Below are positions 2,720 to 41,789 of a stretch of DNA of 64,000 nucleotides, piece by piece. How positions within the stretch are numbered: the first letter of the stretch is position 1; every line of letters begins with the position of its first letter. Origin of the DNA: Nocardia bovistercoris (GTDB taxonomy: Bacteria; Actinomycetota; Actinomycetes; Mycobacteriales; Mycobacteriaceae); the NCBI RefSeq assembly GCF_015674855.1, contig NZ_JADMLG010000001.1, forward strand, positions 364,193 to 428,192, written 5' to 3'. The position numbers and the translations under genes are program-made. The notes under the pieces are model-generated. The model made no database searches, was not told the origin of the DNA, and saw only the letters and a program-made list of their open reading frames with translations.

Positions 2720-4776
<2,057 letters not shown>

Positions 4777-17161: not shown

Positions 17162-17878
17162 TCATTCCTCCCGGAAGGGATAGAGCTGCGCTATGAAATT
17201 CTTGTCTCCAGCAGAAAGATCTGTATTCCAGGGGATTTCGAAGCCACCCGTGGTCAGCTCCGCGGGTACCGGATACTGCATGATCGAGTCGGGATCATAG
17301 GAGCTGAAATCGGTTTCCATCGGACTCTCACGGTGCAGCACATTGTGCCGAATCTGGTCATCGTCCCACCCCGACGAACGATAGTGGGCGTAAACGGCGC
17401 TTTCATCCCACGGAATCTCAGCGACGGGACTGGAATGCTCGTGCACACAACCCAATGCGTGACCGAATTCGTGGAGCACGAACCTACGTGCAAGGTCAGG
17501 AGGGTTGACGTCGGCCAAACCGCCCAGCTGCATCGTCGGCTCGGTCGGATGTATCCGCTGAGCGGCGGTCCCGATGTAGGACCAGTTGCCGGAACCGGTG
17601 AAGGTGATACGCAGTTCGGCATTCGCGTGGTCGCCGAATACGAATCGGAGGTTGGCATATTCGAGCCAGGTCCGGGCGTATCGCTCGACCAGTGATCTAC
17701 CGCGGGCATCGCCATCGAGGAATCGAATACGCAACTCTTGACCGACCTGCCACTTCCGATCCCTGGCCAGCGCGAGTTCGTTTCGCGAACCGGTGACGCC
17801 GATGGCGGCCTTACCGGCGCCGGATTCGAACGACTCCCCGGGGGGATGTACTTCCACGCAGGAATGCAGTTCGGTCAT
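17162..17878 (-). CDS. Astacin-like metzincin metalloprotease
   Basis: 238-residue zinc peptidase. The metzincin site HEFGHALGCVHEH (HExxHxxGxxH, near residues 134-146) supplies three His ligands and the catalytic Glu, and the Met-turn follows as SIMQYPVP near residue 200. The upstream strand RFLDGDARGRSLVERYARTW resembles the start of astacin/serralysin-type catalytic domains. No signal peptide or propeptide is seen, so it probably works inside the cell. Its ATG overlaps the stop of the EAD1-trypsin gene (ATGA), so two different proteases are co-translated. Intracellular metzincins beside adaptor-tagged trypsins fit an effector in a conflict or suicide system. Confidence 0.85.
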   Translation of the reverse strand: MTELHSCVEVHPPGESFESGAGKAAIGVTGSRNELALARDRKWQVGQELRIRFLDGDARGRSLVERYARTWLEYANLRFVFGDHANAELRITFTGSGNWSYIGTAAQRIHPTEPTMQLGGLADVNPPDLARRFVLHEFGHALGCVHEHSSPVAEIPWDESAVYAHYRSSGWDDDQIRHNVLHRESPMETDFSSYDPDSIMQYPVPAELTTGGFEIPWNTDLSAGDKNFIAQLYPFREE

Positions 17879-18942
17879 GGTGTCATCATGCCACTACGGT
17901 AGGAGATCCCGAGCTCATCCAGCGCGGCGGCGGCGGCCTCGATTCGCACACCCATGTTTCGCCAGATCGTCTGCGGCCCATCCGCGCTCGGTACTACTCG
18001 GCCGGACTCACCCTTGTGGATCGCGACGACTTCCATCCTCTCGTTGCACACCGGAGAGCCGGAGGAGCCGCGGAGCGTATCGGCAAGGTAACGCACATAA
18101 CGCTCGTCGACCTCCCACACGGCGAGCGGTTCGAGCGCGAACTGCTTCCTCGCACCCAACGGATGTTGAATTATGACCAGCAGATCATCGATGCACGGAC
18201 CCGAGCGGCTGCCCAAGGTGAACGGCGTGCGATCGACGGGGGAAGCCAGCCGCAACACCGCCCAATCCGCCGCGGCGTCGGCGGCCACCGGCGCGATATT
18301 CACCCCACGGACCAAGGGCTTCTCCGGGGGCGACATATCCCAATCGAATTCCGCGACAGCCGTGATCACCGGCGCCTGCTGTTCCGTGCCCGCTTCGAGC
18401 ATCAAGTTGTGGTGGCTGGTCAACAGCAGATCGGCGGTGATCAGGAAGCCGGTTCCGTACCCCCTGCGATCCCGCGAGTTCAGGACCAGTCGCGCGACCG
18501 CGGGAGCGAATCCGGTGATCTGCCGTGCTAATTCGACAGACATGAGACGGCTGCGCTTCTCCATCAAACGTTCGAGATTTCTGGCCACCAGTCGGCTGTC
18601 ATCCCGGTGCGGCTCCTCGATATACGCGCCAACGGTGGTGAGCGCAGGCTCCGCTCCGAGCATTTCCCGAAACCGGTCCTTGAACGCTCCGGCGAGCGGC
18701 GATTGCGCGGCGTTCTCGACCAAGGTTCGCAACTTGCCCTGACTGGCCATGGTCTCGATCAGCTTGTGACACGTGGATCGGACATCATAGGCGAAGGGGA
18801 AGGTTCCCGGAACGATCCCTGCTTCCTCGGCCAGACTTTCGAGGGCCTCGACACGACGGAATCCGACCACAAGGAGGTCGCGTAGCTCGGGAGGTTCCGG
18901 TGTACTCCATGCCACTGGCAGTCTGTCGAGGAAGTTGGTCAT
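17875..18942 (-). CDS. Trypsin-like protease with N-terminal EAD1-like adaptor domain
   Basis: 355 residues. Residues about 10-95 match the pattern of effector-associated domain 1 (PELRDLLVVGFRRVEALESL ... KLRTLVENAAQSPLAGAF), a small helical adaptor that in bacterial conflict systems docks effectors onto partners by like-with-like contact. Residues about 150-345 are a trypsin-fold protease with an intact triad: His in LLLTSHHNLM, Asp in DWAVLRL, Ser in GSSGSPV. The start at 18942 follows AGAGG; upstream in-frame codons would eat into the divergent promoter region. It is transcribed away from a second EAD1-like gene at 19067, only 124 bp apart. Confidence 0.85.
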   Translation of the reverse strand: MTNFLDRLPVAWSTPEPPELRDLLVVGFRRVEALESLAEEAGIVPGTFPFAYDVRSTCHKLIETMASQGKLRTLVENAAQSPLAGAFKDRFREMLGAEPALTTVGAYIEEPHRDDSRLVARNLERLMEKRSRLMSVELARQITGFAPAVARLVLNSRDRRGYGTGFLITADLLLTSHHNLMLEAGTEQQAPVITAVAEFDWDMSPPEKPLVRGVNIAPVAADAAADWAVLRLASPVDRTPFTLGSRSGPCIDDLLVIIQHPLGARKQFALEPLAVWEVDERYVRYLADTLRGSSGSPVCNERMEVVAIHKGESGRVVPSADGPQTIWRNMGVRIEAAAAALDELGISYRSGMMTP

Positions 18943-19066: not shown

Positions 19067-20794
19067 ATGTCCCGGAACCAACCATCCCGTCTGTGGACCG
19101 ATGCCGAGCTCGAACAGCTCCGAGACCAGGTGCTGCTGACAGCCCGCGAATACCGGGAGCCGGACAAGATCAGGGAACTGGTGAGCAAGTTGCCATCCGG
19201 CCACGACCTCGACGCGGATACGAAGTGGAACGGGACTGCGCGGGAGATCTGGCGCGATGTCCTCACCAATGCCAATAGCCGCGGCATTGTCGATGACCTT
19301 CTGATCGTAGTCGGCGAGGATCCACTGAGTGTAGGGATTCACAATGACCTACGGCTGTTCCTCGACCGGTTGTACAGGGAAAACGTCGAATCCGATTCAA
19401 GACCGGCGGCGACTGCCACTTTCGATGCCTTTCGAATACCGGCGTCGTACCGAAGACAATCGGCAGGCATTCAGTACCCGCCTGTTCACGAACATTTGCG
19501 CTGCCGCCTGGACGTTCGCATAGGACTACGCCGCGGCCCACACGTCACTCTGGTAGCGGATGCGGCCGACAACGATCTCCGCAGCGCCCTCAACAGGGTC
19601 GAGGACCGTCTGTCGCGCTGGGATGTACCGCGGTGGGTACCGCGTACCTGGTGGTCGATGGTGGCCCACTCCGCGCCGCCGACCAATACCGACGAACTGG
19701 ACCATCATCTGGTCACCGAGTCCGCCGACTGGCGGCGCCGAGACGAGACTGAAGACATCGGCATCGTGCTGTCATTTCCGGATGGCTACCCGATGCCATC
19801 GGCAAAGAAGTACATAGATGCCATCCGGAGTCGGGTGCCGAACGCCGCTGTGGTGGGCTGGATTCCGCGGACGCGGGCGGGAGACGCCGCCGATTCGGCA
19901 GCTGATTTGGCCGAGATGACGGGCGCGGATGAATTCCTGCTCCGCTTACCCGTGCCGCGCAGCCCGACGAATCGTGGCATGCGCCGCCCGGTGCACGACG
20001 GCGGCGCGCACACTGCTCTGGTCGCCGCTCTCTTGGAAGACGGTGCGTACGGTCTCCCCGGCGAGGACCGCGATGCCCTACCACTTCCGGACGACGCGCC
20101 GCCCCGTGGCTTCGCGCGTCAATTGGTCGAGGAGTTGAATGCCGAAGATCCCTGGAAGACGGCCGAATACGAGGTGCTCGCGGCGGTCCGTGAATTTCGA
20201 CCGGATCTGTTTCCGGCATTGCTGGCCGAATGCGCCGCGAAAAGAATCGACCCGCAACGTCTTTCCTCGCTGCGCATCGCGGCGCGAACGGACGAGGACA
20301 TGGACAGTTGGATCACCGCGGCGGGTGGTCGACTACCGCTCCCCGGTACGGATATTCCCTCCCGATCGATCGATCCCGCCACCGCCGACGCCGTAGTGCT
20401 CGGGCTCGTCCGGCGCGGCGACACCGCTACCGCCGGATTATGGGTTCCCTACGCGAGCGTCACGGTCGCACACGTAATCGAGGCGCTGCACAGCGGAATC
20501 GACGCGACTGCGTTCGTGCACGACGCGACAGCAGACCAAACGGTCGCTGCTATGCGCGCGAACTTCGCGTCCGCCGTCGATCTTTCGCGCGTACCGAACG
20601 GGCGTGTGCGACCGGGTTGCTGGGCGGTACTGGCCAGGCGCGGAATAACCGACGATATACGAGCATTCGTGGAACAGCTGGACGATCAGCTGCGTAGGGT
20701 GCTGGAAGGCACGGTTGCGCCATCGCTGCTCGAGGAAGAGTCGATCACTCCGCTTCGGAACGGATTCTGGCCACCGCTCGTGACGCCAGATTGA
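19067..20794 (+). CDS. EAD1-like adaptor protein with uncharacterised C-terminal region
   Basis: 575 residues. The first 105 or so (LWTDAELEQLRDQVLLTARE ... IWRDVLTNANSRGIVDDLLI) have the EAD1-like pattern, the same kind of adaptor as on the trypsin encoded divergently. The remaining 470 residues are not recognised: a mixed alpha/beta part with repeated Trp residues (about 150-290) and an acidic, helical part (about 320-575). The stop is 15 bp before the next gene, so both form one operon. I infer that this protein links the protease side of the locus with the giant protein, as sensor or scaffold. The start is ATG at 19067; the ribosome site (AGGG) is weak. Confidence 0.75.
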   Translation: MSRNQPSRLWTDAELEQLRDQVLLTAREYREPDKIRELVSKLPSGHDLDADTKWNGTAREIWRDVLTNANSRGIVDDLLIVVGEDPLSVGIHNDLRLFLDRLYRENVESDSRPAATATFDAFRIPASYRRQSAGIQYPPVHEHLRCRLDVRIGLRRGPHVTLVADAADNDLRSALNRVEDRLSRWDVPRWVPRTWWSMVAHSAPPTNTDELDHHLVTESADWRRRDETEDIGIVLSFPDGYPMPSAKKYIDAIRSRVPNAAVVGWIPRTRAGDAADSAADLAEMTGADEFLLRLPVPRSPTNRGMRRPVHDGGAHTALVAALLEDGAYGLPGEDRDALPLPDDAPPRGFARQLVEELNAEDPWKTAEYEVLAAVREFRPDLFPALLAECAAKRIDPQRLSSLRIAARTDEDMDSWITAAGGRLPLPGTDIPSRSIDPATADAVVLGLVRRGDTATAGLWVPYASVTVAHVIEALHSGIDATAFVHDATADQTVAAMRANFASAVDLSRVPNGRVRPGCWAVLARRGITDDIRAFVEQLDDQLRRVLEGTVAPSLLEEESITPLRNGFWPPLVTPD

Positions 20795-20809
20795 CATCCG
20801 GAGGTGGCA

Positions 20810-23800
20810 ATGCTTGCAGATTGGTTCTTGTGCTCGGCATTTCGGCTCCCACCGAACCTGACCCATGCCTATCTCGACATGCTCGCCGCGCTGCGGGAGC
20901 CGCGGGAGCGCGCGACCCTCGTCATCGACGCGATCGATGAACTCCGTCGAGTGGACACGGGCCTGATGCTCTATGCGCTGCCGCGGGTCACCGCCGCGCA
21001 TCGTCGCCTCGCGGACGTCACGGCGGTGACAGCCCAGGCGGCGGGGTTCTACGACGACCTGTGCGCGGTGCTGCACACCGACGGTGACCGACTGCGTGCG
21101 GCCTTCGCCGCCCTGCCCGAGTCACCGCAAGCGCTGTTCGTCGTCCTCGCCGAGATCGCCGACACCTGCGATGCGCCGGACGCCGCCCGTAGACCGGGTG
21201 ATCCGTATCAGGACATCGTCGACTATCCCGCCGTCACCGTCACCCTCGCGCTGCTCATCGACGTCGCGACCAGGCACGCCGATGAGGTGCGCGGGTGGAT
21301 CGTCGACGGCGCACCGACCCTGCTCGAACATGCGCGCTCGGGCGGATACGGGCGACTCCCTCTGCTCTTCGCGACGCACTTGGTCGCTCTCGTCGACCAC
21401 CGCGCGGCCACAATCGACGAATTGGCGAAGAAGCTGTGGGAGTTCGGCGACCGAGCCGCGGATCTGGAACCGGATCTGGTCCATGCCCTCGTCCAACTCC
21501 GGTTTCCGGTCGGTACGGATCTGCGTGTCCTCGAGGCGGAGGCCGTCAACGGAAACGAACTGAACAGGTGGCGCGCGGGCACAAGTCCGCACGACCCCAT
21601 TCCCGCCCGGGCGGCGGCCTGCGCTCGAGTCGGAGCAGACGGCTCCCGCGCCCGCGATACGGCAGCGGTGCTCTGGCAAGCGACACTCTGGGAGAGGATC
21701 GCCGCGCTCGCACCCGTCGAGGCGATCGGACTGCTGCGTCGATGGTGGCAGCCGCCGTCACCGACATTCGCCGAACCGGTCGAGGTGCGAGTGCCGTGCG
21801 AACCCAGCTATCAGGCGACACAAGCGCATCTCGGCGCGCTGCTCGCCACCCGAAGTCTGCAGTTGAGATCGAGACATCCGCGTATCGCGGTCAAACCGAG
21901 GACCGGGGCGATCGGAGCCACCTCCGACGAAGTCGCGGTGTTAATCGGCTCGCCATGGTTGTTCCGGCGCTCCGACAAGTGGGGCAGCCGGATACCAGCC
22001 CAGTTCACCGGTAGTACCCAGGCGGCCCCCTTGATCCGGTTGTGCTGCGCCGCTCTGCTCGCCGTCGATCTGCTGCGCGCCAACCGGCATGTCGATCCGG
22101 CCGACGAACCCACGCATCTGTTCGCGCTGATCTTCCACCTTCGCGACGTGACAGGCGACCGCTCGCTGCGTACCGCCCTCGACAACATCAAGCAATCCCA
22201 GTCCGTCAAGCCCACCGAATTGCCGCTGCCGCTGCAGGGGCTCGCCTATCACGCGATGGAGGCCATCGACCGCGCTGGAAAGGGGGAGTATCCGGAACTC
22301 CCCGGTGGGCGTTTGGCTCGGTTCATTCTGGACGGCACGGGCGCTCGCGAGCGACTCGACGACGCGCCGGATCAATGGCGGCTGCTCTTCCGGCAAGCCG
22401 CGCGAGCGATCGCCGTGTACTGGATCAAGGAGACCTCTTCAGGAGGCCTGCCGCGCACCACGACCGCGGGGGACGGCTGGTTCGACGGCGTCGATCCGTA
22501 CGCACGGCGACTACTGGCGGCCGTGGTGGGCGGAGCCGGTGCGGGATTCGACGCCAACCTCTCCGACGCGCAACGCTTGTTGGACGAGATCTACTCGCAT
22601 CCGCGCGATGCCGATGACTCGCATCCGCGCGATGTCGACGAATGGAACTGGTTCCGCGATAGGGAATCTCACCGCAGGGCGAGCCTAGAACTTCACGAAC
22701 GTCCCTTGAACAGCAATCTGTTGCTGCTCTCACCCCGATACGACATCGAGGTGTGGACCGAATACAGCGCGGAGATCGAGCCGTGGCTCGACGGCGGCGG
22801 GGCGCGGCAGGCCATGGCGACCGTTCGTCTGGAAGCGCTGCTGGCCGACACCGAGTCCGGTGACGTGGGCGCATATGGCGAATGGGTCGAGAAATGGCTC
22901 GACCTGATCGAAGCGATCAACATGCCGATCGAACTTCCTCGAGCCATACGTTTCCGCATGGTCGGCTTACTCGACGCACCGGTGGCGGCGCACGGTTCAC
23001 AGGCACGCGTCGATGCCGTCGGCACGGCGGTGATAGACGCGATCCTCGACATCAGCAGAGACGCGCATCGCTATTACCACCTGTTGTTCCGAGCCCTCTC
23101 TCGTCGGCTCAGGGCAGGGGATGCGATCGCCGACTCCTGGCGATACCGCGTCATGAATCTGTGTCACCGACTGGCGATCCTGGATCCCTACCGGTTCGGA
23201 CCGCGCAGCCCGTACGACACGACCAATCGCCGACGCAGTTCGCGCGACACCGAAGGGGAACTGCGTTCATTCCTTCAGGCCACGGTACTGCGGACGATTG
23301 CGACGCAGGCCGCCACACTGGGTGACGCGATCGAACGGCTGTGGACGACCAACCACCACGGTCCTGACGCGACCGTCACATACTCCACATCCGCCGAAGT
23401 CGAAGCGACCGCGGTGTGGCGCGACGAACGAACGACCCGCCTCATCGCTGTCGACCACCATCACGGACAGGTGGTGCGTCACCATCATCGATTCGACCCG
23501 TCGAAAACGCACACCTCGGGAGAGGTCCGGGATCTATTCCTCCCACAAGCGGATCGACCGCAGACGCTCACCCAGATTCTGCGCTACAACCGCGCGGTCT
23601 TCGCGATCGTCTGCGCGGTCGACAAGGCGACCGGACAGATGTGGTTCAACTGCGGCCTCGGCTACCCACTCGAATATCAGAGCCAACCCGGTGCGCGACC
23701 GCAGGCTGTCGGGTCACCGGTCGCGATCAAGCTGACCGGCCGCACCGACGAGCCGAAGATCACCGAACCGATACCGCTGCGCCGAGCGCAGCCGGTCGCC

Positions 23801-26800
23801 GGTGAGGTCCGCCGCGCCCGCGTGCGGTCTATCCGGCAGTTTCCAGGGCTACGCCTCGAAATCGATGGTGAGCGGGTCGATAATTCCCAAGGAAATTCCG
23901 GGTTCAAGGGCAATTCCGGTGAGGCCGAGCGCGTGCGATCGCGTTGGGATCCCGATCTCGGACGCGCCTTCACCGCCCCGGAAGGCGAAACCTGGACGAC
24001 CCTCGCGATCTGGGACGAGACCCTCGAATATTGGCTCCCGCTCGATCGCACCGGTCTGGATCTGCTCGCCGCCGAATCCTCGAAACTGGCCGAGGGTGGC
24101 CGCCTGCGACTCACCTTCGTCGACCACTCGCTCAGTGACGACGGAATGGGCACGGATCGAGTTCGTTTCGCCGGTTCGCCCGGCCGGTGCTACCTGCTGG
24201 GCGAATCCGACTTCACACAGCGGAGTTGGGCACAGCTGACCGAACGGCTCATCGACGCGCCGACCGGACTGGTCGTCGATGTCATCGCCACCGCGGACGG
24301 CTTGCTCGACTTGCCCGCGGACCCGTTCGACGACCGAAACATCACATGGCTCAGCCTCTTCGAGGACGACAGCGGATTGACGATCGCGCACCGAGAGGCG
24401 AACACCTGGTGGATCGACGTCGACACCCCCGACGGGTACCCGGACCGGATCCGTGTGAGCAAACCACACGACTCGGTCACCTCACCGCTGTTCACACTCG
24501 GCCGCTGGGGCGAGTTCCAGGCCCGCAGGGGTGAGATCGACGCATTTCCAGCGGAAGACAACGGAATCACCGATCCAGAGGATCACAGCATCGAACGATA
24601 CGAGCGACTGCACCGCCTGTCGAAAGGCGAAGTAGTCACGCTGAAGAACTGCGCGGGCAATGACCTCGGTCGTGGCGTACTCCGTGGGTTCACCGCGGAA
24701 GGACTCTCGCTCTCGCTCAAGTCCGAATCGGTCACCCTCTACGCCGACCCGCACAGCGTACACAGATTCGTCCGCGATCGTCCCGTAGAGATCGAGCGAG
24801 ACTACAGCAAGCCGATGGACGCGGAGCGCGCATCCGTCGCCGCGACGAGTGACACGATCCTCGGCATGTCCTCGATCGAAGACGCCCGAGAACGAGATGC
24901 CGTGCGAGAGCGTCTCACCGTGGCCGATTCGATCACCGGCATGATCGTCAGGACGATTCGCGGACCCGATAACCAAGTGCGCGCGTACGGTGTGTGGCTG
25001 CGGTTCGACGGCGATGTCGTATTGGTGACCGTGCCCGAGACGGCGTTCTCGGTCGGCGGCAGGCACGCGGGGGACCACATCGCCGGTAGTCGATCGGCCG
25101 AAGGCTGGGTGTTCTCCGTGCGATACCGCGTCATTCGGGCGCGTGGATTCTACGAACAGGTCGACGCGCGTGCGACCGGATGGCACCTGATCGGTTTCGC
25201 CACGGTCGGCAATCGCAGGAAATCAGTGTGGCAGGACCCGAATCGTCCGATCATCGCCATCAGCGATGAGCAGGCATCCTGGAGCGGCAAGACCACGATC
25301 GCGAAAATAGGGAAGGGCGACGGCTCGATCTTCGACGGCAAACGCTACATCCGGGTCGCGGTCCGGCACGGCAATGTGACGATGGTCGGCGACGCTCAGG
25401 AATTCGAACGCGGAGCGGATGTGCGACTCGACTACCCCCGCATCCAGCTCACACGGCGCGTCGGTGCCGGGACGTATTTCGTCGCAAGGACCTTCGAGCT
25501 GAAGGCAGCGGTGGCGGTGCGTTCGGCACGGCCCGAAGTCGGCTCGGAACAGCGGATGGAGCGCTGGCGCGAGGAACTGGAACGCGGGCGCCACCATCTG
25601 ACCGGCGAGCTCAGCGATTCGGAGCTGCATCTCGACATCGCGGCTCTGCGCCCCGACGGCACCTGGGGGAATTCGTTGCCGCTGCGCCCGGACGAGGAGC
25701 CCCTCATCGCGGCCCGCAACGCCTACAAGAAACTGACTCGCGTACGCGTGGAACCGGAGGGCCAGGGTTACGTCGGATCGTTCGCCCGTGCCGAACCTTT
25801 CACCGTGATCGAATTCATCGAAGAACTGAAGCTCAGCGGAGACGGTTCCAGGGAGCACTTCGGCACCCGTCGGGTCTACTACGTGGGCGACGAGACCATC
25901 GGCGACCGGACGGTGCACCGGTTCGAATGGGGATTCGGATGGGTGCTCGACATTCCCGAGGAGGCATTACGGCTCGGCGCCGATCCGATCGACGGCGCCA
26001 TCCCGCCCTTCTTCCATTCCGATCGCGTAGGGGCCATGCGCTTCACGGCCGACCCCACCGTTCCGGGGCACGTGGTCGTGCATATCGCGCCGGAAGACAT
26101 CCACCCCTCGGTGGAGGGCCAGATCATGCGCGAAGCGGGCAAGAAGGTCATCCACGAGATCGAAGTGCTGATCGATGTCCGCGACGAAATGGTCACGGTC
26201 CTCAATATCCACACGCAATCACCGGAATCCGCCGGTGCGGCCGCCGGGTGGATCCGTACGACAGACCACTCGATCACGGGACGGATGCACCGGGACAGCA
26301 TCACCGCGTTGCTGAACGCCGAGCGACATTCCACCGGCCCGGTGCGACGGCGCATCCTGGCCAAACTCGACGTCGATATCGCACGTCTCGGCAGGCTCCG
26401 CGAATTCAGTTGGGTTCCCTTGACGGATCTTTCCGCCGGTCAATGGCTCTACATGAAGGCGGGCTACATCAGGAAGACGAGCAACGGGACCTCACTCGAA
26501 TTCCGCTTGCCGGATCGACTCGGGGCGCATACGGCGTTCTCGGTGCACGTCAACCGCCGCCGATTCTCCTATAGCCCTGGACGACTCGACCAAGCTTTCG
26601 AACGCCACGGAAAAGACGCTTTTCACAGGCGCATGATGTTGGTCCGATTGCTGCCCTCGAACGACAAAGGCTGGCTCGGCGCGGTGACCAATGGTCCGCC
26701 GCGCCCGTTCCTCACCTTGCTGAGTTGGATCCGCCACAACCGCGGAACCTGTTATGCCACGATGGGTTCCGAGATCACCGTCGAGGTCAATCCGAGTGTG

Positions 26801-29800
26801 TTCTACAGAGTGCCGAGCCTGAGACGCCGTCATCTTCCCGAGGGCACCCTCGTACAGCTCAGCCAAGCGTCCGACAAACGAGAGATCGTTCTCACCGTCG
26901 CCCTTCCCGCTCAGGAACAGTACGTGCGAGACGGCCGCCTGGTGGTGGCACTGCCGAAAGATCCGCTGCTCCGTCCGAACGGAATCACACAAGCCAAGAG
27001 ACCGCGGATGTTCACCGTAGCCGGGCTGCCCGACCTGGAAGCGACTCTGGACAAAGGCATGGACGCGAAGGCGCTGCTGCGCACACGACATCCCCGAGTG
27101 CTCTTCGCGAAGTCCGGCTCGGACGGCGTCGTCCTGTACCGGAGCGACCATCCCGGTGCGGGCAACGCGTTCGCCGCGACCATCGACATCGATGGTTCCG
27201 ATCTGAGCGCGAAGATCCGCTACCTGGACGGACATACCAAGCCCGTGGCATGGGCGCGCCTGAGTTTCGCCAACGCGACCGCGACCGAGATCGCCGAACG
27301 CTGCCGCCAGAACCACTGGAAATATCACGATTCGCGAACCGGGTACTGGGTCGACGACGACACCGTCGAGCCGCAGCCGTTGCGCAGAGACGAGATCTGC
27401 GCCCTGACCGAGCCGGTCATGTTCGCCTCGGAAGCCGGTCCGACGCTGCGCTACCGATCACTGGATCGTTTCGCGCTACCCGCCACCGAACTGCTGGACC
27501 GCACCGACGACGAATCCGCCGATATCCACCTCGTCGTAGCGGGCAGCCATGACGAGCGCGGTCTGTGGGTCGAACTAGGCCCCGGTCGGGTGGTCGAGAT
27601 TCCAGCCAGTTTGTTCGCACAGGCGGGTACGCCACTGGCACGGTTGGAGTGGTCACGCTTCGCCGTCGGTGACGAGATCACCGTACGCAAGATTCCCGAC
27701 TCGCCCGGATACGCGACTCTCGAACTGCGTACCTGGCGACCGGGGGTTCGCGCGGCCTTCGGCAAGGCGCCGGGAACAGCGGCGATGTTGTTGCCGATCC
27801 AATACATACTGCCCGACGGCGGTCTGTTGCTCGGGAGCGGTCGGGAAACGATCAAGTATCCGATGGATCCGCCGACGACCGCTCGTTACACCGTGGGCGC
27901 GGCGGTCTGGCTCGACCGACGCAACGACGTCGCATTCGATGCCGAACGCGAAGTGGCGCAACACGACATCGTGCTGCTCGGAGTCGACGCGACCACCGGA
28001 GACCTTCGCGTGCACGGCATCGAGACAGCGCGGGTCGTGCTGACCCATGTCGACAAGAACACCTGGTCGGCGCTCGGCTGGTTGCACGACGAACTCGAGG
28101 ATGTGTCGGCCCGCCGCGCGCTCGTCAACCAACTGGGCGGGAGTCTGCCCGTGACCGTCGAACGAGTCCGACGGCAGGAGGACGGCAACCTCGAAATCGC
28201 GGTATCTCGTCGCCATCAGCCAGGCGGCTGGTGGCCTTCGGACCGATTGGCGCGCACCGAGGTCGCCGCCGCGCTCGCCGACCACAGCCTGGTCCTACGT
28301 GCCGGTGGCGCGTTGCGCCGAGTCACCGCGGACCAGGCGGTCCCCGGTTCGGCCGTCAAGGCCGGGGCCGTGAGCGCGGCGCTGACCACGCTCACCGAGC
28401 CGCTGTGGTGGACGGTCGGCGCCGACGGCCGACCCCACACAGGTCTGCCGGAAGCGGATACGGACGAACGGCAAGTTCACATTCAGCACGCCCTGGGCGA
28501 CGACACCGAATGCTTCGGTTTCATCTGCCGCGATCCACGCTCCCAGGCAATGGGCCTGCTCTCCACGCACCGGGCTTCCTGGGCCGAGCACAAGAACGCC
28601 GCAGCCTTCATGACCGTATTCGGCACAACCGACCCGATCACCGTGACACGACTCCCGCACGGTGGGTTCTCGGTGATCGACCGGCCGCTGGTAGCACGGG
28701 AATTCGACCTGCTCGCGCTCGGCTCCGCTCTGCAGGTACGCATCAGCGCGGCGCTCGCCGAGGCCGACCACTCCGGCCGGTTCCCCTATCTGGCCCGCAC
28801 CCGGCTCACCGATGTGCTACTCACGGTGTACAGCGACACCGAGTTGACCGTCGGGGACCATCTGAGCATCGAGATATCGGGGAAGAGCACCGCGACGACG
28901 CCGACGGCAACCGGCGAACCGATCGGAACCCGGAAGACCGTCCTTGATGTACCCGCCGCCGTAGCGACAGGTCTTCGAGCCCTGTCGCAACGGAAATCCA
29001 ACTCGAAACGGCCCGTTCAGACGCTCGACCGGATGACCGCGCAGTTCGCCACCCTCGAATCCGCGTATCGCGAAGGGCTGCTGCACGGTGACGCGTCGCG
29101 GCCGCTCGAAGAACAGATCGTCCGTGCGGCAGGCGTCGCCATCGACGATCCGCACGACCCGAGACTTGGCGGGATCCTCCTCGCGTGGCTTCGCGACGGC
29201 GGTGATCAGGTCGTGGCGGGAAGAGGCGAATGCGAACTGCTGCCGCTGCTGACGGCGTGCATCGTGACAGCCGCCGTCGGTGACGCACACGCGGATATCG
29301 CGGGACTGTCGGTACTGATGGCGCATCAACTCGGAAGACGAGCCGCACGCTCGATACATATCGAGCCATTGGTCTCGGAATGGTTGACCCGCCGCGACCG
29401 GCACGACGCCGACGGGCCATGGCGGCGAATGGCGCAACTGAAGCTCGGCGACCGCCTCGACATGTCGGATTCGAGTTGGATGGCGCGATTCTGTGAGGCT
29501 GTCATGGCGAGACCGGTCGTGCACGGAGCCGCAGACGACCGAGTGCCCGTCGCGCGAGCGCTGCTGGCATCGATAGGACGGTTGGAGGCAACCGATCAAT
29601 TGGAAATGAGCGCGCCGACGCTGGCGCCACTTGCGGCGTTGAGTCGCGCGCTGTCGCCGCCCGACGGACTCCACACCGCCCAACGGGAATTGCTGCCCGC
29701 CCAGACAGAAATTCTACGGTTCGCATTGCGAACTCATATCGCACACACCATGGCGCTACCGCTGCTGCCGCCGGTCGGCCGACTTCCCGACAGTGGTCGA

Positions 29801-29848
29801 CGCCTGATCCGTTCGGCCATCGCGCAGTTGGAGCGAGATGTGGAGTAG
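20810..29848 (+). CDS. Giant 3,012-residue protein of unknown function
   Basis: One uninterrupted frame, start ATG at 20810 with GGAGG 5 nt upstream. I recognise no family. It has three zones: a helical N-terminal zone (about 1-855), a very long beta-rich zone (about 855-2705) made of many short strand-rich units, several vaguely like S1/OB modules (for example SITGMIVRTI ... VWLRFDGDVV near 1376), and a helical C-terminal zone (about 2705-3012). There are no signal peptide, membrane segments, Walker motifs or obvious catalytic motifs. It is preceded by an EAD1-like gene in the same operon and faces metzincin and trypsin genes. A sensor or scaffold that gates the proteases, or a nucleic-acid-binding platform, are possible readings; neither is shown. 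Confidence 0.85.
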   Translation: MLADWFLCSAFRLPPNLTHAYLDMLAALREPRERATLVIDAIDELRRVDTGLMLYALPRVTAAHRRLADVTAVTAQAAGFYDDLCAVLHTDGDRLRAAFAALPESPQALFVVLAEIADTCDAPDAARRPGDPYQDIVDYPAVTVTLALLIDVATRHADEVRGWIVDGAPTLLEHARSGGYGRLPLLFATHLVALVDHRAATIDELAKKLWEFGDRAADLEPDLVHALVQLRFPVGTDLRVLEAEAVNGNELNRWRAGTSPHDPIPARAAACARVGADGSRARDTAAVLWQATLWERIAALAPVEAIGLLRRWWQPPSPTFAEPVEVRVPCEPSYQATQAHLGALLATRSLQLRSRHPRIAVKPRTGAIGATSDEVAVLIGSPWLFRRSDKWGSRIPAQFTGSTQAAPLIRLCCAALLAVDLLRANRHVDPADEPTHLFALIFHLRDVTGDRSLRTALDNIKQSQSVKPTELPLPLQGLAYHAMEAIDRAGKGEYPELPGGRLARFILDGTGARERLDDAPDQWRLLFRQAARAIAVYWIKETSSGGLPRTTTAGDGWFDGVDPYARRLLAAVVGGAGAGFDANLSDAQRLLDEIYSHPRDADDSHPRDVDEWNWFRDRESHRRASLELHERPLNSNLLLLSPRYDIEVWTEYSAEIEPWLDGGGARQAMATVRLEALLADTESGDVGAYGEWVEKWLDLIEAINMPIELPRAIRFRMVGLLDAPVAAHGSQARVDAVGTAVIDAILDISRDAHRYYHLLFRALSRRLRAGDAIADSWRYRVMNLCHRLAILDPYRFGPRSPYDTTNRRRSSRDTEGELRSFLQATVLRTIATQAATLGDAIERLWTTNHHGPDATVTYSTSAEVEATAVWRDERTTRLIAVDHHHGQVVRHHHRFDPSKTHTSGEVRDLFLPQADRPQTLTQILRYNRAVFAIVCAVDKATGQMWFNCGLGYPLEYQSQPGARPQAVGSPVAIKLTGRTDEPKITEPIPLRRAQPVAGEVRRARVRSIRQFPGLRLEIDGERVDNSQGNSGFKGNSGEAERVRSRWDPDLGRAFTAPEGETWTTLAIWDETLEYWLPLDRTGLDLLAAESSKLAEGGRLRLTFVDHSLSDDGMGTDRVRFAGSPGRCYLLGESDFTQRSWAQLTERLIDAPTGLVVDVIATADGLLDLPADPFDDRNITWLSLFEDDSGLTIAHREANTWWIDVDTPDGYPDRIRVSKPHDSVTSPLFTLGRWGEFQARRGEIDAFPAEDNGITDPEDHSIERYERLHRLSKGEVVTLKNCAGNDLGRGVLRGFTAEGLSLSLKSESVTLYADPHSVHRFVRDRPVEIERDYSKPMDAERASVAATSDTILGMSSIEDARERDAVRERLTVADSITGMIVRTIRGPDNQVRAYGVWLRFDGDVVLVTVPETAFSVGGRHAGDHIAGSRSAEGWVFSVRYRVIRARGFYEQVDARATGWHLIGFATVGNRRKSVWQDPNRPIIAISDEQASWSGKTTIAKIGKGDGSIFDGKRYIRVAVRHGNVTMVGDAQEFERGADVRLDYPRIQLTRRVGAGTYFVARTFELKAAVAVRSARPEVGSEQRMERWREELERGRHHLTGELSDSELHLDIAALRPDGTWGNSLPLRPDEEPLIAARNAYKKLTRVRVEPEGQGYVGSFARAEPFTVIEFIEELKLSGDGSREHFGTRRVYYVGDETIGDRTVHRFEWGFGWVLDIPEEALRLGADPIDGAIPPFFHSDRVGAMRFTADPTVPGHVVVHIAPEDIHPSVEGQIMREAGKKVIHEIEVLIDVRDEMVTVLNIHTQSPESAGAAAGWIRTTDHSITGRMHRDSITALLNAERHSTGPVRRRILAKLDVDIARLGRLREFSWVPLTDLSAGQWLYMKAGYIRKTSNGTSLEFRLPDRLGAHTAFSVHVNRRRFSYSPGRLDQAFERHGKDAFHRRMMLVRLLPSNDKGWLGAVTNGPPRPFLTLLSWIRHNRGTCYATMGSEITVEVNPSVFYRVPSLRRRHLPEGTLVQLSQASDKREIVLTVALPAQEQYVRDGRLVVALPKDPLLRPNGITQAKRPRMFTVAGLPDLEATLDKGMDAKALLRTRHPRVLFAKSGSDGVVLYRSDHPGAGNAFAATIDIDGSDLSAKIRYLDGHTKPVAWARLSFANATATEIAERCRQNHWKYHDSRTGYWVDDDTVEPQPLRRDEICALTEPVMFASEAGPTLRYRSLDRFALPATELLDRTDDESADIHLVVAGSHDERGLWVELGPGRVVEIPASLFAQAGTPLARLEWSRFAVGDEITVRKIPDSPGYATLELRTWRPGVRAAFGKAPGTAAMLLPIQYILPDGGLLLGSGRETIKYPMDPPTTARYTVGAAVWLDRRNDVAFDAEREVAQHDIVLLGVDATTGDLRVHGIETARVVLTHVDKNTWSALGWLHDELEDVSARRALVNQLGGSLPVTVERVRRQEDGNLEIAVSRRHQPGGWWPSDRLARTEVAAALADHSLVLRAGGALRRVTADQAVPGSAVKAGAVSAALTTLTEPLWWTVGADGRPHTGLPEADTDERQVHIQHALGDDTECFGFICRDPRSQAMGLLSTHRASWAEHKNAAAFMTVFGTTDPITVTRLPHGGFSVIDRPLVAREFDLLALGSALQVRISAALAEADHSGRFPYLARTRLTDVLLTVYSDTELTVGDHLSIEISGKSTATTPTATGEPIGTRKTVLDVPAAVATGLRALSQRKSNSKRPVQTLDRMTAQFATLESAYREGLLHGDASRPLEEQIVRAAGVAIDDPHDPRLGGILLAWLRDGGDQVVAGRGECELLPLLTACIVTAAVGDAHADIAGLSVLMAHQLGRRAARSIHIEPLVSEWLTRRDRHDADGPWRRMAQLKLGDRLDMSDSSWMARFCEAVMARPVVHGAADDRVPVARALLASIGRLEATDQLEMSAPTLAPLAALSRALSPPDGLHTAQRELLPAQTEILRFALRTHIAHTMALPLLPPVGRLPDSGRRLIRSAIAQLERDVE

Positions 29849-34004: not shown

Positions 34005-37000
34005 TCAGCGCCAACTGGCCGCATATCCGGCGGCCACCCGGTTCTCGTGTTCGGACGCGCCGAGATCGGGTGGGCGCGGCACCGAGATCTGCACCACCAA
34101 TCGCTGGTTCACCCGGCGTTCGGGTCGCGGCGCTACAGACGCCGCAGGCATCGCGGCGGGTAGTGTCCACAGGGGCTTGTCGACGACACTGTCGAGCGAA
34201 CTGTGGATAAGGTCGATCAGCGAAGGTACCAGGCCGCCCGCACCACCGGCGGAGAGGTCGGCGGCAATCGGAGCAGCCGCAGGATTGGCCTGCGGACCGC
34301 TCGTTTCGGGCGGTTTGAGCGAGAAGTCGTTACCGACTCCCGGATCGAAACTCGAGAGGGTGATCTTGCCGCCGGGGTCGGTGCGCACCAACCGGTAATC
34401 GATGGTGGCATTGCCGGCCAGTAGCTCGTTCAGCAGATTCGTATTGTTGTCCTCGTCATATTTCTTCAAAGCCTCGTACGCGTCGGAGCCTTCTTTGAAT
34501 TCGTCACGAAGATATTCTGGCGTCCCCTGTTGAACCCTGACCTGCTTTCCATCGATCGTGACAATACGCGAACTCATTCCATCGCCGCCCTTGAGTTCCA
34601 GGTCGACAACCTGCAAGCTACCGTCATCCAGCTTCTTCACACCGATACGGTCCGCAGTCCCCGGCCCCGAACCTCTGTGAATAATGTTAATTTTCTCGTA
34701 CTCGGCAACAATCTCACCACCGATCTCCCCCCGCGTCTCCGACAGCTTGGTGACCATCCCCTTCGAAACACTGATCTGCTCGGCCAGACTCTCGATTAGA
34801 TCTCTATCGGTCCTGGATGTTCCCGTATCCCGGAGATTTCTGAGCGTTTTAGGAAGATTGGTTCGTGATAGGTCATCGATCGTGACCGACCTCGGATTTC
34901 CATCGCTGCCTATAATCTTGATAGGTTTATCCGGGTTACTGACCAGGTCTTCCAGATCAGACATAGCTTTGTCCCGGATATCTTTATTCGCGTTCTGGGC
35001 CACATCCACTGAACGTAAATTGCGAGCAGCCTCATCGGATATCTCTCCTTTGAAGACCTCACGCTCCCCATATTTTCCGAATATGGAGATGTCGGATGGC
35101 GCTTTGGCCCACTGCGGCATTGTCACGAAACCGCCCGATGGACCCTGCCATTGAATGTTCCCTTTCGGCATGACAACGGGCTTGGACCCCAACGGCAGAT
35201 CAACCCACACACCGTCCGGATCGATGGCGGACCAATTCCCCTCGGGGTCGACACGGTACCCGTTGGGTATCGGTTTACCGTCCAAGGGAACGTCGTCGGG
35301 ACCAAGTGGATTGCCACGGGACCAATTGCCGTGCTCGCCAGGAGCCCTGCGTGGTATCTGCTGCCATAGTCGCCGCATCATCGGGCCGATGGGGTTCCAC
35401 ACCGGGTCGTAGCCGAAGGGATTGCCGGGGCTGGTGTCATAAGGGCTCCACTTCGGACCTGCGGGGGCGACGGGCTCCGCGCCGAGGAATGGCTTCTCGC
35501 CATTGAGGAGAGGCGCGCCGTCTGAGCCGTGCCCGTATCCACTTCCGCCTCCGGGCGCATTCGGTCGTGGAGCGACGTGTCCGGGGACGGCATCGCGTGG
35601 AACCGGCGATGGCGACCGCGGGCTCCAGGGCATTTCGCCGCGGGGGTAGTCGAGGATGGCGGGAATGGCCTCACCACCCGCCCGCGCGTCCGCACCGACA
35701 CGCGCACCGGTGCCGTAGGGATTGGCGGGCTCGGGCACGAACAGCGAGGTCTGAGGCTTGGGATCCCAGGGCGCATACAGCGCTGGTGTGCCCTCGGTCC
35801 CGGCCTCACCGACGCGACCACCGGCGCCGCCGGATCTACCGAGTGCGCCGGCCTCCGCCGCGAGCCCCTGTTCGGCTTCACCGACGATCTTTCCTCCGAG
35901 CCAGCGAAAGCCCTTTGCCAGTGGTGTGAAGACCACGCCCGGAGTAAAAGTGAGAATGGACATGCCCGCACCGAACGCGGCTTGCCCGTAGTCGCCGTCG
36001 CGGAGTCCTTCATCGAGGTCGCCGAGACCGGTCAGGTCGCCGAGAAGTTGACGAAAGTCCCCCTCGTTGAATTTATGTTCGTTGCTCTCGGGTTCGAAGG
36101 GCCGGTTCGGGTCGAAGGTGTAGAGCCGCGGGGAGTCTTCGAGCGCTCTGAGCTGGTCGGGGGGCATTATCGGGGTGCCTGAGCTCTCCAGGCGGCCCCG
36201 TGCTTCGACGGCGTTACGCCATAGAACATTTTGCATGCTGGCGGCCGGAACACCCTCGGCGAGAAGCCAATCCGTATATGCCTTGCGGGATGGGTCATCG
36301 ATGGGCAGATATTGCAGGCCGGCGAGGTGCTGGTCGTCGTCTCGCTTGCGTGGGGTGTAAGCGTGCTGATCGAGCCGGTCCTGGGCGTCTCTACGTAGCT
36401 TTTCGCTGCGCTCGTCGAGCGTGCCGGTGGTGCCGGCCAGCGACAGATCGTTGACCAACTGGACTGGGCTGTACCCGAGTCCGGGCATCACGGTGGTGCC
36501 GTCGGCGGTCTTCGGCAGAGCGGACTGGTTCCAGTGACTGTTGAGCCGGTTGGCCGCTTCGGTTCTGGCCCGGTTGAGCGCGTTGGCGCCTTCGATGGTT
36601 TGCGGGCCCATCACGGTCTGACCGAGCAGTGCGATGTCGCGGTCGCGTTGTTCGGGACTGTATGTGGGGTCAGTGGCGAAGTAGCCACTGAGCTGTTGGG
36701 GCGTTACGGCTGTGTTCGGTTGCGATCGTGAGGTTTTCGCACCGGGTATCGAGACCGTGGTCTCCTTGCCTGTCAATCCGTTCGCAAGCGGAACGGACTC
36801 GACCCCGACGGTCGTGCCACTGGGGAGTGTGAGCGTCTCACCGCTTCCGACCGGACCGTTGTTGACGAGGCCGACGACGTCAGGTAGCGCGCCGGAGGGG
36901 GGCCGCTGTTGAGGTGGTGATGTGAGCGCGGGGTACAGGCCCATGTCCAGCGGCGATTGTTGCCCTCCCCCCGCCCCGCCGGTGCTGGACGGGACCGACG

Positions 37001-37142
37001 GGGGCGGTGAACTATTCGATTTTGGTGCGGCAGTCGCACTGCCCTTCGCGGACGCGCCGCTGAAGGGGGAGGTCGGTCGCTGTTCCGCCGGTTTGCTGCT
37101 GCCATCCTTGGGCGGTTTATCAGCCGGATCTTTCGGTGCCAT
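34005..37142 (-). CDS. Polymorphic-toxin-like protein with PD-(D/E)XK-type nuclease region
   Basis: 1,045 residues. About 1-130 are Pro/Ser/Gly-rich and disordered, about 150-400 helical, about 400-620 again Pro/Gly-rich, and about 790-900 look like a restriction-endonuclease fold: a conserved Glu in EIGGEIVAEYE (about 804), Asp in GTADRIG (about 825) and the E-x-K core VDLELKGG (about 847). The end after about 985 (KPLWTLPAAMPAAS onward) is low-complexity and may be an out-of-frame extension. No signal peptide or WXG100-type head was seen. The ATG at 37142 follows GAGGT. It lies 299 bp behind the last tail fibre gene on the same strand and in front of the immunity paralogues, so it may be delivered by the tail particle. 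Delivery and activity are inferred. Confidence 0.78.
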   Translation of the reverse strand: MAPKDPADKPPKDGSSKPAEQRPTSPFSGASAKGSATAAPKSNSSPPPSVPSSTGGAGGGQQSPLDMGLYPALTSPPQQRPPSGALPDVVGLVNNGPVGSGETLTLPSGTTVGVESVPLANGLTGKETTVSIPGAKTSRSQPNTAVTPQQLSGYFATDPTYSPEQRDRDIALLGQTVMGPQTIEGANALNRARTEAANRLNSHWNQSALPKTADGTTVMPGLGYSPVQLVNDLSLAGTTGTLDERSEKLRRDAQDRLDQHAYTPRKRDDDQHLAGLQYLPIDDPSRKAYTDWLLAEGVPAASMQNVLWRNAVEARGRLESSGTPIMPPDQLRALEDSPRLYTFDPNRPFEPESNEHKFNEGDFRQLLGDLTGLGDLDEGLRDGDYGQAAFGAGMSILTFTPGVVFTPLAKGFRWLGGKIVGEAEQGLAAEAGALGRSGGAGGRVGEAGTEGTPALYAPWDPKPQTSLFVPEPANPYGTGARVGADARAGGEAIPAILDYPRGEMPWSPRSPSPVPRDAVPGHVAPRPNAPGGGSGYGHGSDGAPLLNGEKPFLGAEPVAPAGPKWSPYDTSPGNPFGYDPVWNPIGPMMRRLWQQIPRRAPGEHGNWSRGNPLGPDDVPLDGKPIPNGYRVDPEGNWSAIDPDGVWVDLPLGSKPVVMPKGNIQWQGPSGGFVTMPQWAKAPSDISIFGKYGEREVFKGEISDEAARNLRSVDVAQNANKDIRDKAMSDLEDLVSNPDKPIKIIGSDGNPRSVTIDDLSRTNLPKTLRNLRDTGTSRTDRDLIESLAEQISVSKGMVTKLSETRGEIGGEIVAEYEKINIIHRGSGPGTADRIGVKKLDDGSLQVVDLELKGGDGMSSRIVTIDGKQVRVQQGTPEYLRDEFKEGSDAYEALKKYDEDNNTNLLNELLAGNATIDYRLVRTDPGGKITLSSFDPGVGNDFSLKPPETSGPQANPAAAPIAADLSAGGAGGLVPSLIDLIHSSLDSVVDKPLWTLPAAMPAASVAPRPERRVNQRLVVQISVPRPPDLGASEHENRVAAGYAASWR

Positions 37143-37441: not shown

Positions 37442-38398
37442 TCAGGTGATTCGTATATAGGTGCCGCTCGCGTTGATCGTGGCCTGAGCGATCCCGGCGA
37501 GACCGTAGCTGTCGCTGACCTCGAGGGTGATGAGATCGTTCTCCGCGACCGCGACAGTCGTGCTCACCACCGCCGGACTGGCGGCGGAGCCGGTGGCGAT
37601 GACGGTGCCGTTCTTCTTCAGGCGCGCGGAGATCGAGTTGGAAGAACCGCTCGGCGTCCAGGAGACGTTGGCCGCGACGGTCGCCGAAGCTTTGGCTCCC
37701 AGACTCACCAAGGCGTTGGTGGTCACGGTCGAGCCCGGATAGCTCGTGGTGTCTGCGGTCCAACCGACTACTTGTACCCAGGTGTTCTGGGCGTTGGGCC
37801 CGGTTTGGGTTCCGCTCTTGTTCATCCCCGACGGCCGGAAACCGGGAACGACAGCGGCCGTGAGATTTCCGGTTCCGGTCAATGGGGCGGTGACCGGTGT
37901 GGGTGGCAAGGTGACGCTCGCGGTCGAGGTGGACATCGCGTAGAAGGCCGGCTTGGCGGAGGCATGGGGGGTGACCGCCGCGGAGAGTTCACCGACGCTG
38001 TCGGAGAGCGCGTTGGTCGTCGTGGCGCGACCGATCGCGCCGAGCGGTGCCGCGACCAACAGCTTGGTCGAATTTCCGCCGGCGACAGCGCCTTTCGTCG
38101 TTCCGGTGTCGGCGAACGCGGCCGGGACGGAGGGGCGTGGACCTGCCACCGCGGTGAGCAGGCCGACCGCACCGGCCGTCATCGGCAGGACCGCGGACGC
38201 CTTGGTCGACGTGAGTAGCGTTCCCGCCCCTGTCAGTGTCGCCGTGATGAACGGCGGGATGGTGGGGATGTCTCGACCCGAGACCGAAGATGTCGGCGCC
38301 GACGGCAGCGCCACTGTGCTCGTCGGCGCGGCGGGGACGGTGGGAGCAGCCGAGGGCGACGCGGGCAGCCTCGCCGTACTCCACGCGGTATCTGCCAT
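37442..38398 (-). CDS. Tail fibre / minor tail protein, Ala-Thr-Ser-rich
   Basis: 318 residues, ATG at 38398 with GGAGG 8 nt upstream. The N-terminal region (STARLPASPSAAPTVPAAP, then IPTIPPFITATLTGAGTLLT) is paralogous to the start of the gene at 38582. The middle consists of repeated small beta units rich in Ala, Thr and Gly, and the end (SWTPSGSSNSISARLKKNGT onward) looks like a beta-sandwich of the kind found at phage tail tips. The composition and place in the tail operon support a fibre or baseplate role. The 299 bp between this gene and the toxin hold no gene I can support. Confidence 0.7.
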   Translation of the reverse strand: MADTAWSTARLPASPSAAPTVPAAPTSTVALPSAPTSSVSGRDIPTIPPFITATLTGAGTLLTSTKASAVLPMTAGAVGLLTAVAGPRPSVPAAFADTGTTKGAVAGGNSTKLLVAAPLGAIGRATTTNALSDSVGELSAAVTPHASAKPAFYAMSTSTASVTLPPTPVTAPLTGTGNLTAAVVPGFRPSGMNKSGTQTGPNAQNTWVQVVGWTADTTSYPGSTVTTNALVSLGAKASATVAANVSWTPSGSSNSISARLKKNGTVIATGSAASPAVVSTTVAVAENDLITLEVSDSYGLAGIAQATINASGTYIRIT

Positions 38399-38581
38399 GC
38401 GGAATCCTCCAAAGATATTATCGCGTATAGATTTTCGATACAGACCGATCGATACGCCCCGGCTGCGGACGACGCCTGCCCGACACCGCGTCGGCGCCGC
38501 GCCCGACGACATGTCGCGCGCGGCGCCGTGCGGTTTCGAACGCCGAAGTCCGGCCACGAGCGATCGGAGTGCGTGAGCCGA

Positions 38582-39088
38582 TCACGGACCGGAACTGCTG
38601 ACCGATGCCGTGGCCGTGCCACGGGCGGAGTACGCGGGCAGCGCACCGGCGTGCCCCGCCGCCGTCGCGGAGAGCGTGCCGAAACCGACGAGGGCGGCAT
38701 CGGCACCGACCGCACGGGTGTCCGCGCCGAACGACGCGGACACCACGATCCCGCTGCCCGCGCCGCCCGTCACACGTGCCGACGTGAACCCGGTGTCACC
38801 GAAATTCGAGGCGAAGGACTGTGCGTACCGCGCGGTCACGGTCAGCAGGCCGGTACCGCCCGCGGTCACGGCCGTTGGCACCGACGGTGCGAACAGTACT
38901 GTCGGTGTGGCTGTCCCCGAGAAATATGCCGAGACGAAGGCGGGGATGACCGGGACGCGGCTCCCGTCGACGTGGGCGACCGGCGACGATGGCGCCGTTC
39001 CCTCCGTTGTCGACGGACCGGGGAACACCGGAGCCACGGTCGGCGGTGTGGGCAGCCTCGCCACCAGCAGCCGTTGCGGCGCTGTCAT
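38582..39088 (-). CDS. Tail-associated protein, paralogue of the neighbouring fibre protein
   Basis: 168 residues, ATG at 39088 with GGGAGG upstream. It shares the layout of the N-terminal half of the gene at 37442 (LVARLPTPPTVAPVFPGP, then RVPVIPAFVSAYFSGTATPT), so the two arose by duplication, with this one lacking the C-terminal beta-sandwich. Ala/Thr/Val-rich strands predominate. Specific function unknown. Confidence 0.65.
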   Translation of the reverse strand: MTAPQRLLVARLPTPPTVAPVFPGPSTTEGTAPSSPVAHVDGSRVPVIPAFVSAYFSGTATPTVLFAPSVPTAVTAGGTGLLTVTARYAQSFASNFGDTGFTSARVTGGAGSGIVVSASFGADTRAVGADAALVGFGTLSATAAGHAGALPAYSARGTATASVSSSGP

Positions 39089-39140
39089 AGTGCCTCCCTA
39101 TTCGGTTGTGCCCCGATCTTCCAGGGCGACCACTTACCAC

Positions 39141-39491: not shown

Positions 39492-39564
39492 GGTGGCTCC
39501 TCGAGAGATGTTGTGTGGAAGGTTGTTTCGCTGTCCCCGCAGGCGCGAGGGACGTGGTGGTGTA

Positions 39565-39900: not shown

Positions 39901-39925
39901 AGGGTTCCTTTCATGAGTTCGGGTG

Positions 39926-41744: not shown

Positions 41745-41789
41745 AGTTCTCTCCGACGAATAGAAGAATGGATGACAGGCTCGGACGGA

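Follow-up and report, generated by a model that had tools for sequence, protein, structure and literature searches.

Among the bacterial conflict systems described so far, the closest to the locus examined here are those in which effectors are linked to a core through small EAD domains (Kaur et al. 2020, PMC7159879). The cores of such systems carry nucleoside triphosphatase (NTPase) switches of the MoxR, GTPase or STAND kind (Kaur et al.), and multiple OB-fold S1 domains were reported in some TERNS3 effectors (Kaur et al. 2021, PMC8195603), so that OB arrays are not foreign to EAD-type systems. Eukaryotic apoptosis and immunity may have had forerunners in the suicide systems that multicellular bacteria base on caspase, CHAT or trypsin, as discussed by Kaur et al. 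(2020, 2021). In Craspase, composed of gRAMP and TPR-CHAT, RNA recognition switches on the CHAT protease (PMC11106740, PMC9729208), and the defence cores of Hachiman, AVAST and Canu acquired trypsin or caspase proteases gating nucleases upon infection (PMC12799240). The window analysed in this study is a stretch of 64,000 nucleotides from Nocardia bovistercoris (assembly GCF_015674855.1, contig NZ_JADMLG010000001.1, positions 364,193 to 428,192 of the forward strand), and all positions below refer to it unless a locus label precedes them. Its forward strand encodes a giant protein of 3,012 residues (20810..29848), which probably serves filamentous bacteria as the constant core of an EAD-type conflict system coupled to peptidases, acting there as sensor as well as scaffold. 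The operating grammar of such a system is already known (Kaur et al. 2020, 2021). The main clue to the giant is its partner gene with the coupled peptidase, neither of which appeared in an earlier note on this DNA.

The giant was compared over 18 loci (16 from a scan of species genomes, the window and one plasmid locus). A same-strand partner open reading frame (ORF) ended just before the giant in all of them, the spacing ranging from a slight overlap to about 215 bases (measured to the residue aligned with the first of the giant). In the window, this partner comprises 575 residues (19067..20794, forward strand), with an N-terminal EAD1 (residues 10-82, 19094..19312; E-value 2.7e-4) followed by a region common to all partners (residues 168-572, 19568..20782; 210 bits with a leave-one-out profile). 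The last 220 residues of this shared region are helical-looking and the best aligned; about 220 C-terminal residues were common to the window and Streptomyces partners (36%, E 7e-21). Leave-one-out profiles recognised the C-terminal 400 residues or so in 18 of 18 loci, scoring between 59.5 and 264 bits, whereas reversed controls, where reported, stayed at or below 2.6 bits; these profiles are not fully independent, since the parent alignment had contained every row and the cyanobacterial rows, three in number, lend support to one another. No Pfam model matched the shared region, and the motif [AG]xxxxGK[ST] occurred in a single partner of the 18. Fusion of partner and giant was considered and rejected: they lie in one frame, but a stop codon and a new ribosome-binding site stand between them.

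The N-terminus of the partner is a swappable peptidase slot. It is a CHAT domain in nine of the 18 loci (L002, L013/L019, L015, L018, L020, L021, L022, L023 and L027), a caspase in three, a trypsin in one and none of these in five (the window, L016, L024, L025 and L028); 13 partners hence carry a fused peptidase. Three loci bear two labels each (L016 is L012, from Glycomyces; L019 is L013; L026 is L007). Among the caspase partners, L029 was recognised by Pfam (E 3.7e-6), L026 fell below the cut-off (E 0.02) and is 32% identical to L029 (E 2e-11), and L014 is 35% identical to the caspase part of L029 (E 2e-23). The trypsin of L017 was likewise below the Pfam cut-off (E 0.0026). Patterns located the catalytic His and Cys in 8/9 CHAT and 2/3 caspase partners, missing the His of L021 and the Cys of L029, though the latter is visible by eye.

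A peptidase was encoded in a neighbouring gene in four of the five loci devoid of a fused one, i.e. in the window and the three cyanobacteria, which brings to 17 of 18 the loci with a peptidase either in the partner itself or in an adjacent gene. In the window, a divergent gene (17875..18942, reverse strand) displays an EAD1 (18697-18909; 24.3 bits, over the cut-off) together with Trypsin_2 (18019-18456; E 3.9e-16), whose His, Asp and GSSGS Ser are in place by eye. This arrangement follows the EAD coupling principle of Kaur et al. 2020. The best PADLOC match of the trypsin gene was RT-Protease_XI (E 4e-7), with a weak match to Avs1b (E 0.006), covering the protease part only. Its end is overlapped by 4 bases by a gene for an astacin-like zinc metallopeptidase (HEFGHALGCVHEH; 17162..17878, reverse strand), which scored 23.2 bits with Astacin (cut-off 22.5, E 6.1e-5) and whose best NCBIfam match, NF050131, reached 105 of 650 bits. 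In cyanobacteria, CHAT is encoded by a gene of its own immediately 5' of the partner at each of the three loci (E 1.6e-19, 4.5e-20 and 8e-17). The C-terminus of the one from L025 matched the N-terminus of its partner (27% over residues 382-481, E 1.6e-5) in BLAST comparisons of neighbours and partners run with composition adjustment and masking off. In Glycomyces, a 34-residue motif ends a nucleoside-phosphorylase gene and begins the partner (44%, E 9e-5), which may resemble motifs of bacterial amyloid signalling (BASS) and RHIM.

Swapping of the slot was followed on a quick tree of the 16 unbroken giants, for which long branches and a composition warning were flagged. Partner labels changed 7 times on this tree, for a possible minimum of 5 and a mean of 8.6 after shuffling; the caspase label changed 3 times and the CHAT label 4 times. 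The giant nearest to that of the window, from Nucisporomicrobium (37%), is preceded by a caspase-type partner, versus EAD1 in the window. The Nocardia amamiensis giant grouped with a Micromonospora giant, apart from the window, a join that may be false because both are flagged long branches.

The fold of the giant was predicted with AlphaFold2 as two models built from 15-row alignments and covering residues 1-1130 and 1840-3012. The first (predicted local distance difference test, pLDDT, 80.2; predicted template modelling score, pTM, 0.81) is nearly all helix up to residue 849, apart from two short strands (324-328 and 359-363), and consists chiefly of strands from 854 to 1130. The second (pLDDT 83.3, pTM 0.69) displays strands with some helices over 1851-2704, then helices over 2716-3012. 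Three predicted parts follow from N- to C-terminus, all on the forward strand: a HEAT/ARM-like alpha-solenoid (residues 1-850, 20810..23359), an array rich in strands and made of small OB/S1-like barrels (about residues 851-2715, 23360..28954; modelled outside 1131-1839) and a helical domain (residues 2716-3012, 28955..29845). For residues 1-1130, the best Foldseek match was ATR-ATRIP (9l4d, E 5.7e-4), ahead of karyopherin-beta2 (1.8e-3), then CRM1 and CAND1, all of which are HEAT-type proteins. VIA-align gave the solenoid Z scores of up to 8.7 (root-mean-square deviation, rmsd, 20.5; 420 aligned), a range that is common for helical repeats according to the tool. By sequence, the Protein Data Bank yielded no match for residues 1840-3012 and none below E 0.15 for residues 1-1130.

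The array drew matches of another kind. For residues 1840-3012, the single Foldseek match at E <= 1e-3 was 3go5 (E 5.9e-4), a multidomain protein with nucleic-acid-binding domains. With VIA-align, S1 or other OB domains made up the majority of the 50 rows shown, at Z 7.1 to 9.5 and spanning mostly 58-87 residues; eIF2alpha, PNPase, RNase R, NusA, ribosomal S1, exosome, Rpb7 and MiaB were among them. Best placed were eIF2alpha 2a1a (Z 9.5, rmsd 1.8, 64 aligned, model 793-868), PNPase KH-S1 6qh2 (Z 9.2, rmsd 2.2, 75 aligned, model 32-125) and RNase R 5xgu (Z 8.6, rmsd 2.0, 64 aligned). The matches were confined to two places, around residues 1869-1964 and 2630-2709 of the giant; as VIA-align lists are not exclusive, parts outside these places were barely tested and may hold other folds. 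Some eight barrels were counted by eye between residues 1879 and 2705 from the strand order of the model. A kelch or propeller reading was rejected, since the neuraminidases and the lactonase listed by Foldseek had probabilities of 0.10 or less.

Profile self-comparison of overlapping pieces of the giant gave 48 off-diagonal matches at a score of 20 or more, which are not independent owing to the overlap of the pieces, for 11 with reversed columns and 2, 5 and 7 with block-shuffled columns; the best score was 35.7, versus 32.0 for the best reversed one. Recurring units appeared near residues 917-979, 1362-1432, 1688-1760, 1966-2054, 2224-2309, 2434-2511 and 2562-2618. An S1 profile built from 43 distinct S1 sequences of the genus and order of the window scored 19.4 at best against the giant (hhalign), for 11.7 to 16.1 with nine control profiles, and its positions near 48-62 landed on several of these units. 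With a probability of just 5%, the S1 relation of the giant is one of fold, common descent being no more than possible. The presence of an S1-type OB fold is supported at the level of the predicted fold. Concerning the proposals of the earlier note, the helical-beta-helical architecture holds wherever the giant was modelled and its beta-rich centre does show recurring small units, and the resemblance to S1/OB domains was recovered at the fold level, not in sequence. The same note proposed a surveillance platform or scaffold, a putative role in keeping with the EAD1, trypsin, CHAT and caspase partners of the genes concerned.

The composition of the array also bears on what the giant would bind. 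Proteins are frequent ligands of OB and SH3-like barrels. The barrels of the same peptidase-coupled core might accordingly contact proteins or each other, in which case the giant would be a docking platform sensing an invader or host protein. The weakness of the S1 sequence signatures and the solenoid half, which points to protein binding, speak for this explanation; yet the fold matches listed for the C-terminal half are mostly S1/OB domains of RNA-binding proteins, and we hold it to be doubtful, though the most serious of the rivals.

In the reading that we favour, with the giant as core of a peptidase-coupled conflict system, the C-terminal region of the partner would dock on the giant, whose barrel array would bind RNA, single-stranded DNA or nucleoprotein of an invader. 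This binding would cluster or release the partner and, in the window, contact between the two EAD1s would bring in the trypsin-like protease. The recruited protease might then cut cell proteins or switch on another enzyme, possibly the metalloprotease encoded beside it, and its action may end in dormancy or death. A more specific proposal, which we regard as possible and no more, sees in the giant a novel type of prokaryotic immune core, free of both NTPase and CRISPR, whose tandem S1/OB array would sense foreign RNA or single-stranded DNA and directly switch on the docked caspase, CHAT or trypsin protease, via the partner or via EAD or amyloid-like contacts. It would constitute a protein-only Craspase analogue shared by actinomycetes and cyanobacteria.

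Several results weigh against this reading. The EAD1 of the window partner scored 21.7 bits, under the Pfam cut-off of 24.2, and a genome-wide EAD1 search at E <= 0.01 recovered the copy of the trypsin gene only. The two EAD1s are 18% identical, with E 0.002 in one comparison and E 0.35 in another; adjacent EADs are each other's closest kin according to Kaur et al. 2020 (PMC7159879), a kinship that the window pair does not show. Neighbour-partner pairs reached E < 1e-3 in two cases out of 11 (L016 and L025), and the neighbour and partner ends of L024 and L028 gave no BLAST match at E <= 1, their likeness being seen by eye only. No peptidase was found in the six genes scanned near the Glycomyces giant, and the caspase part of L014 had no Pfam match, either in full or cut to its likely start. 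Partner labels cluster somewhat on the giant tree, as few changes having been obtained in 14 of 200 shuffles. As to the fold, rmsd was large in the VIA-align HEAT matches of the N-terminal half, and S1 sequence similarity was not significant (no Pfam S1 at E <= 1, in addition to the hhalign result).

The giant family is rare and patchy, even within a genus. An earlier scan of genome contigs with a single giant protein found no relative; an alignment-based scan of 84,980 species genomes, using two peptide patterns from five giants, gave the 16 loci, which are a lower bound. They occur in Streptomyces (six), Micromonospora (three), Nucisporomicrobium, Glycomyces, Lentzea, Nocardia amamiensis, Okeania (two) and Limnofasciculus (one). 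Two further relatives (31% over 96% of the query) were uncovered by tblastn on linear Streptomyces plasmids and counted as one locus because the upstream protein accession is identical in both. Giants are unbroken in 16 of 18 loci, where they measure 2,963 to 3,228 residues and can be aligned over their whole length with 19-71% identity (20-37% between the window and the others); L023, whose giant has frame changes, and L027, where it has a gap, were excluded prior to alignment. Residues 1-597, when searched against the genus, matched 3/150 genomes, own included, of which two were credible. One of these, G010, carries a 3,048-residue relative, while the match in G093, about 100 residues in a low-complexity-looking ORF without Pfam match, was judged spurious. 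Own genome included, matches were found in 3/397 genomes of the order sample, 1/396 of the phylum sample and 1/394 of the class sample, the window's own genome being the sole match in the last two, in line with the rarity announced by the earlier note. Phage origin of the giant was rejected since no relative was found in IMG/VR viral contigs with the peptide patterns, nor among phage records for residues 1840-2663.

This distribution is relevant to a second rival, in which the giant would belong to a house-keeping complex for protein processing or developmental signalling in filamentous bacteria, unrelated to invaders. Relatives were indeed found in Actinomycetota and Cyanobacteriota only, and the genera carrying them are filamentous. 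Such a role nevertheless agrees poorly with an occurrence as patchy as two credible congeneric genomes in 150, with presence on plasmids and with module swapping, and we consider it unlikely.

A third possibility reverses the roles of giant and peptidase: the recruited protease would cleave the giant and free a fragment that is toxic or active, in the way that Csx30 is cut by Craspase. The peptidase fused or next door in 17 of 18 loci and the lack of any enzyme domain recognised by Pfam in the giant would suit a substrate. The giant, however, is constant over its full length across two phyla, whereas in the systems described by Kaur et al. it is the effectors that vary, which makes this quite improbable.

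At the level of the gene, the giant is a single open frame from ATG 20810 to a stop at 29848 (3,012 residues plus stop), present in one copy in its genome. The mechanically called ORF opens at GTG 20804; ATG 20810 was preferred because of the GGAGG at 20800-20804, which follows the stop of the preceding gene (20792-20794). Scanning with hmmscan against Pfam, NCBIfam and PADLOC recognised no family at E <= 1, and the maximum 19-residue hydropathy mean was 1.71, hence no clear membrane segment. The earlier note was therefore right about an unbroken 9-kb frame devoid of membrane segment and recognised family, and the known large family that it had named as grounds for refutation did not turn up in the three collections. 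The motif GxxxxGK[ST] was absent from the window giant and from all 16 unbroken giants, in a type of search that overlooks odd NTPases, and neither STAND nor NACHT was detected by Pfam in the giant and the partner of the window. A Walker-B reading of LVIDAIDELRR (residues 37-47) was rejected, as by eye it is not kept in 15 other giants and no P-loop accompanies it. In the three giants scanned, no Pfam family matched at E <= 1, and so none of the described EAD cores (VMAP, iSTAND, GAP1, EACC1 etc.), which Pfam covers. Long spurious frames do occur in DNA of high guanine-plus-cytosine content, e.g. one of 3,138 codons that runs antisense to the giant of Glycomyces (L012:3589-13005, reverse strand), itself most likely a by-product of this kind; but full-length colinear homologues in other genera and another phylum show that the giant frame is not due to chance and, with protein-level conservation along its whole length and no family match, a chance ORF or an ordinary known giant (synthase or structural protein) is hardly credible.

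Other genes accompany the family. Each of the three caspase loci has, ahead of its caspase-type partner, an alpha/beta-hydrolase-like gene (L007:16931-18157, reverse strand; L029:6478-7713; L014:6618-7880), with Abhydrolase_6 matches each just below the cut-off (E 2.3e-5, 2.9e-5 and 2.5e-5). A second, divergent CHAT gene faces the CHAT partner in three loci (L002:7037-9187, L015:506-2653 and L023:4961-7141, all reverse strand; the L002 match is just below the cut-off), and the two may perhaps form a protease cascade. In cyanobacteria, a protein of about 310-330 residues precedes the CHAT gene (L024:5228-6157 and L028:1762-2766, alike by eye) and a coiled-coil-like protein follows the giant (L024:19614-20609 and L028:15945-16646). 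The window itself contains siphophage tail genes at 37442-44353 (reverse strand; phrog_110, E 3.5e-179; phrog_106, E 1.6e-94; phrog_4978, E 4.2e-47), so that a prophage or remnant starts some 8 kb beyond the giant. Between giant and tail genes lies a 1,045-codon ORF (34005-37142, reverse strand) with no Pfam match at cut-off and no PHROGs match at E <= 0.001. A 1,502-codon ORF is located at 51820-56328 (forward strand).

Our results suggest that giant and partner form a device, so far undescribed, for immunity or cell suicide in filamentous bacteria. No published description of the giant or of the shared region of the partner was found in the parts of the open literature that were searched. 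If the proposal is true, a constant 3,000-residue core with the same swappable protease slot in two phyla would add a seemingly NTPase-independent kind of sensor. The OB/S1 array also allows a direct question, namely whether bound RNA or single-stranded DNA turns on the protease, and the shared region of the partner offers a handle for finding further such systems.

Among known systems, Craspase has a partial counterpart, outside the window, in a large, putatively nucleic-acid-handling protein beside a CHAT protease (fused in 9 of 18 loci, separate in 3). The locus differs from it by the trypsin of the window itself and by a protease family that varies among loci; no Cas or RAMP Pfam match was found in the giant and no Rfam match in window 16-34 kb, a CRISPR array elsewhere not having been sought. 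With protease-gated nuclease systems it shares the pairing of different cores with trypsin or caspase (PMC12799240); unlike them, it showed no metallo-beta-lactamase nuclease match among the neighbours scanned with Pfam. The short motif common to two neighbouring Glycomyces proteins is reminiscent of BASS pairs (PMC7889193), although giant loci are not NLR-based, and the GxxxxGK[ST] motif found in 0/16 giants separates them from NLR/STAND sensors. The S1/OB RNA-binding domains of RNase R, NusA, ribosomal S1 and eIF2alpha display the same predicted fold at two places of the giant, without significant sequence match. EAD-coupled systems (VMAP, iSTAND, FtsH, beta-propeller, GAP1, NucA, EACC1 and TERNS; PMC7159879, PMC8195603) differ in their core, which is here a 3,000-residue giant without P-loop plus a partner region without Pfam match. 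Yet they are like the present locus in carrying EADs both in a component of the core and in the effector gene beside it, in the swapping of peptidases or effectors and in their occurrence in multicellular bacteria, and the pairing of an alpha/beta hydrolase with a caspase is one that Kaur et al. named for MoxR-vWA systems.

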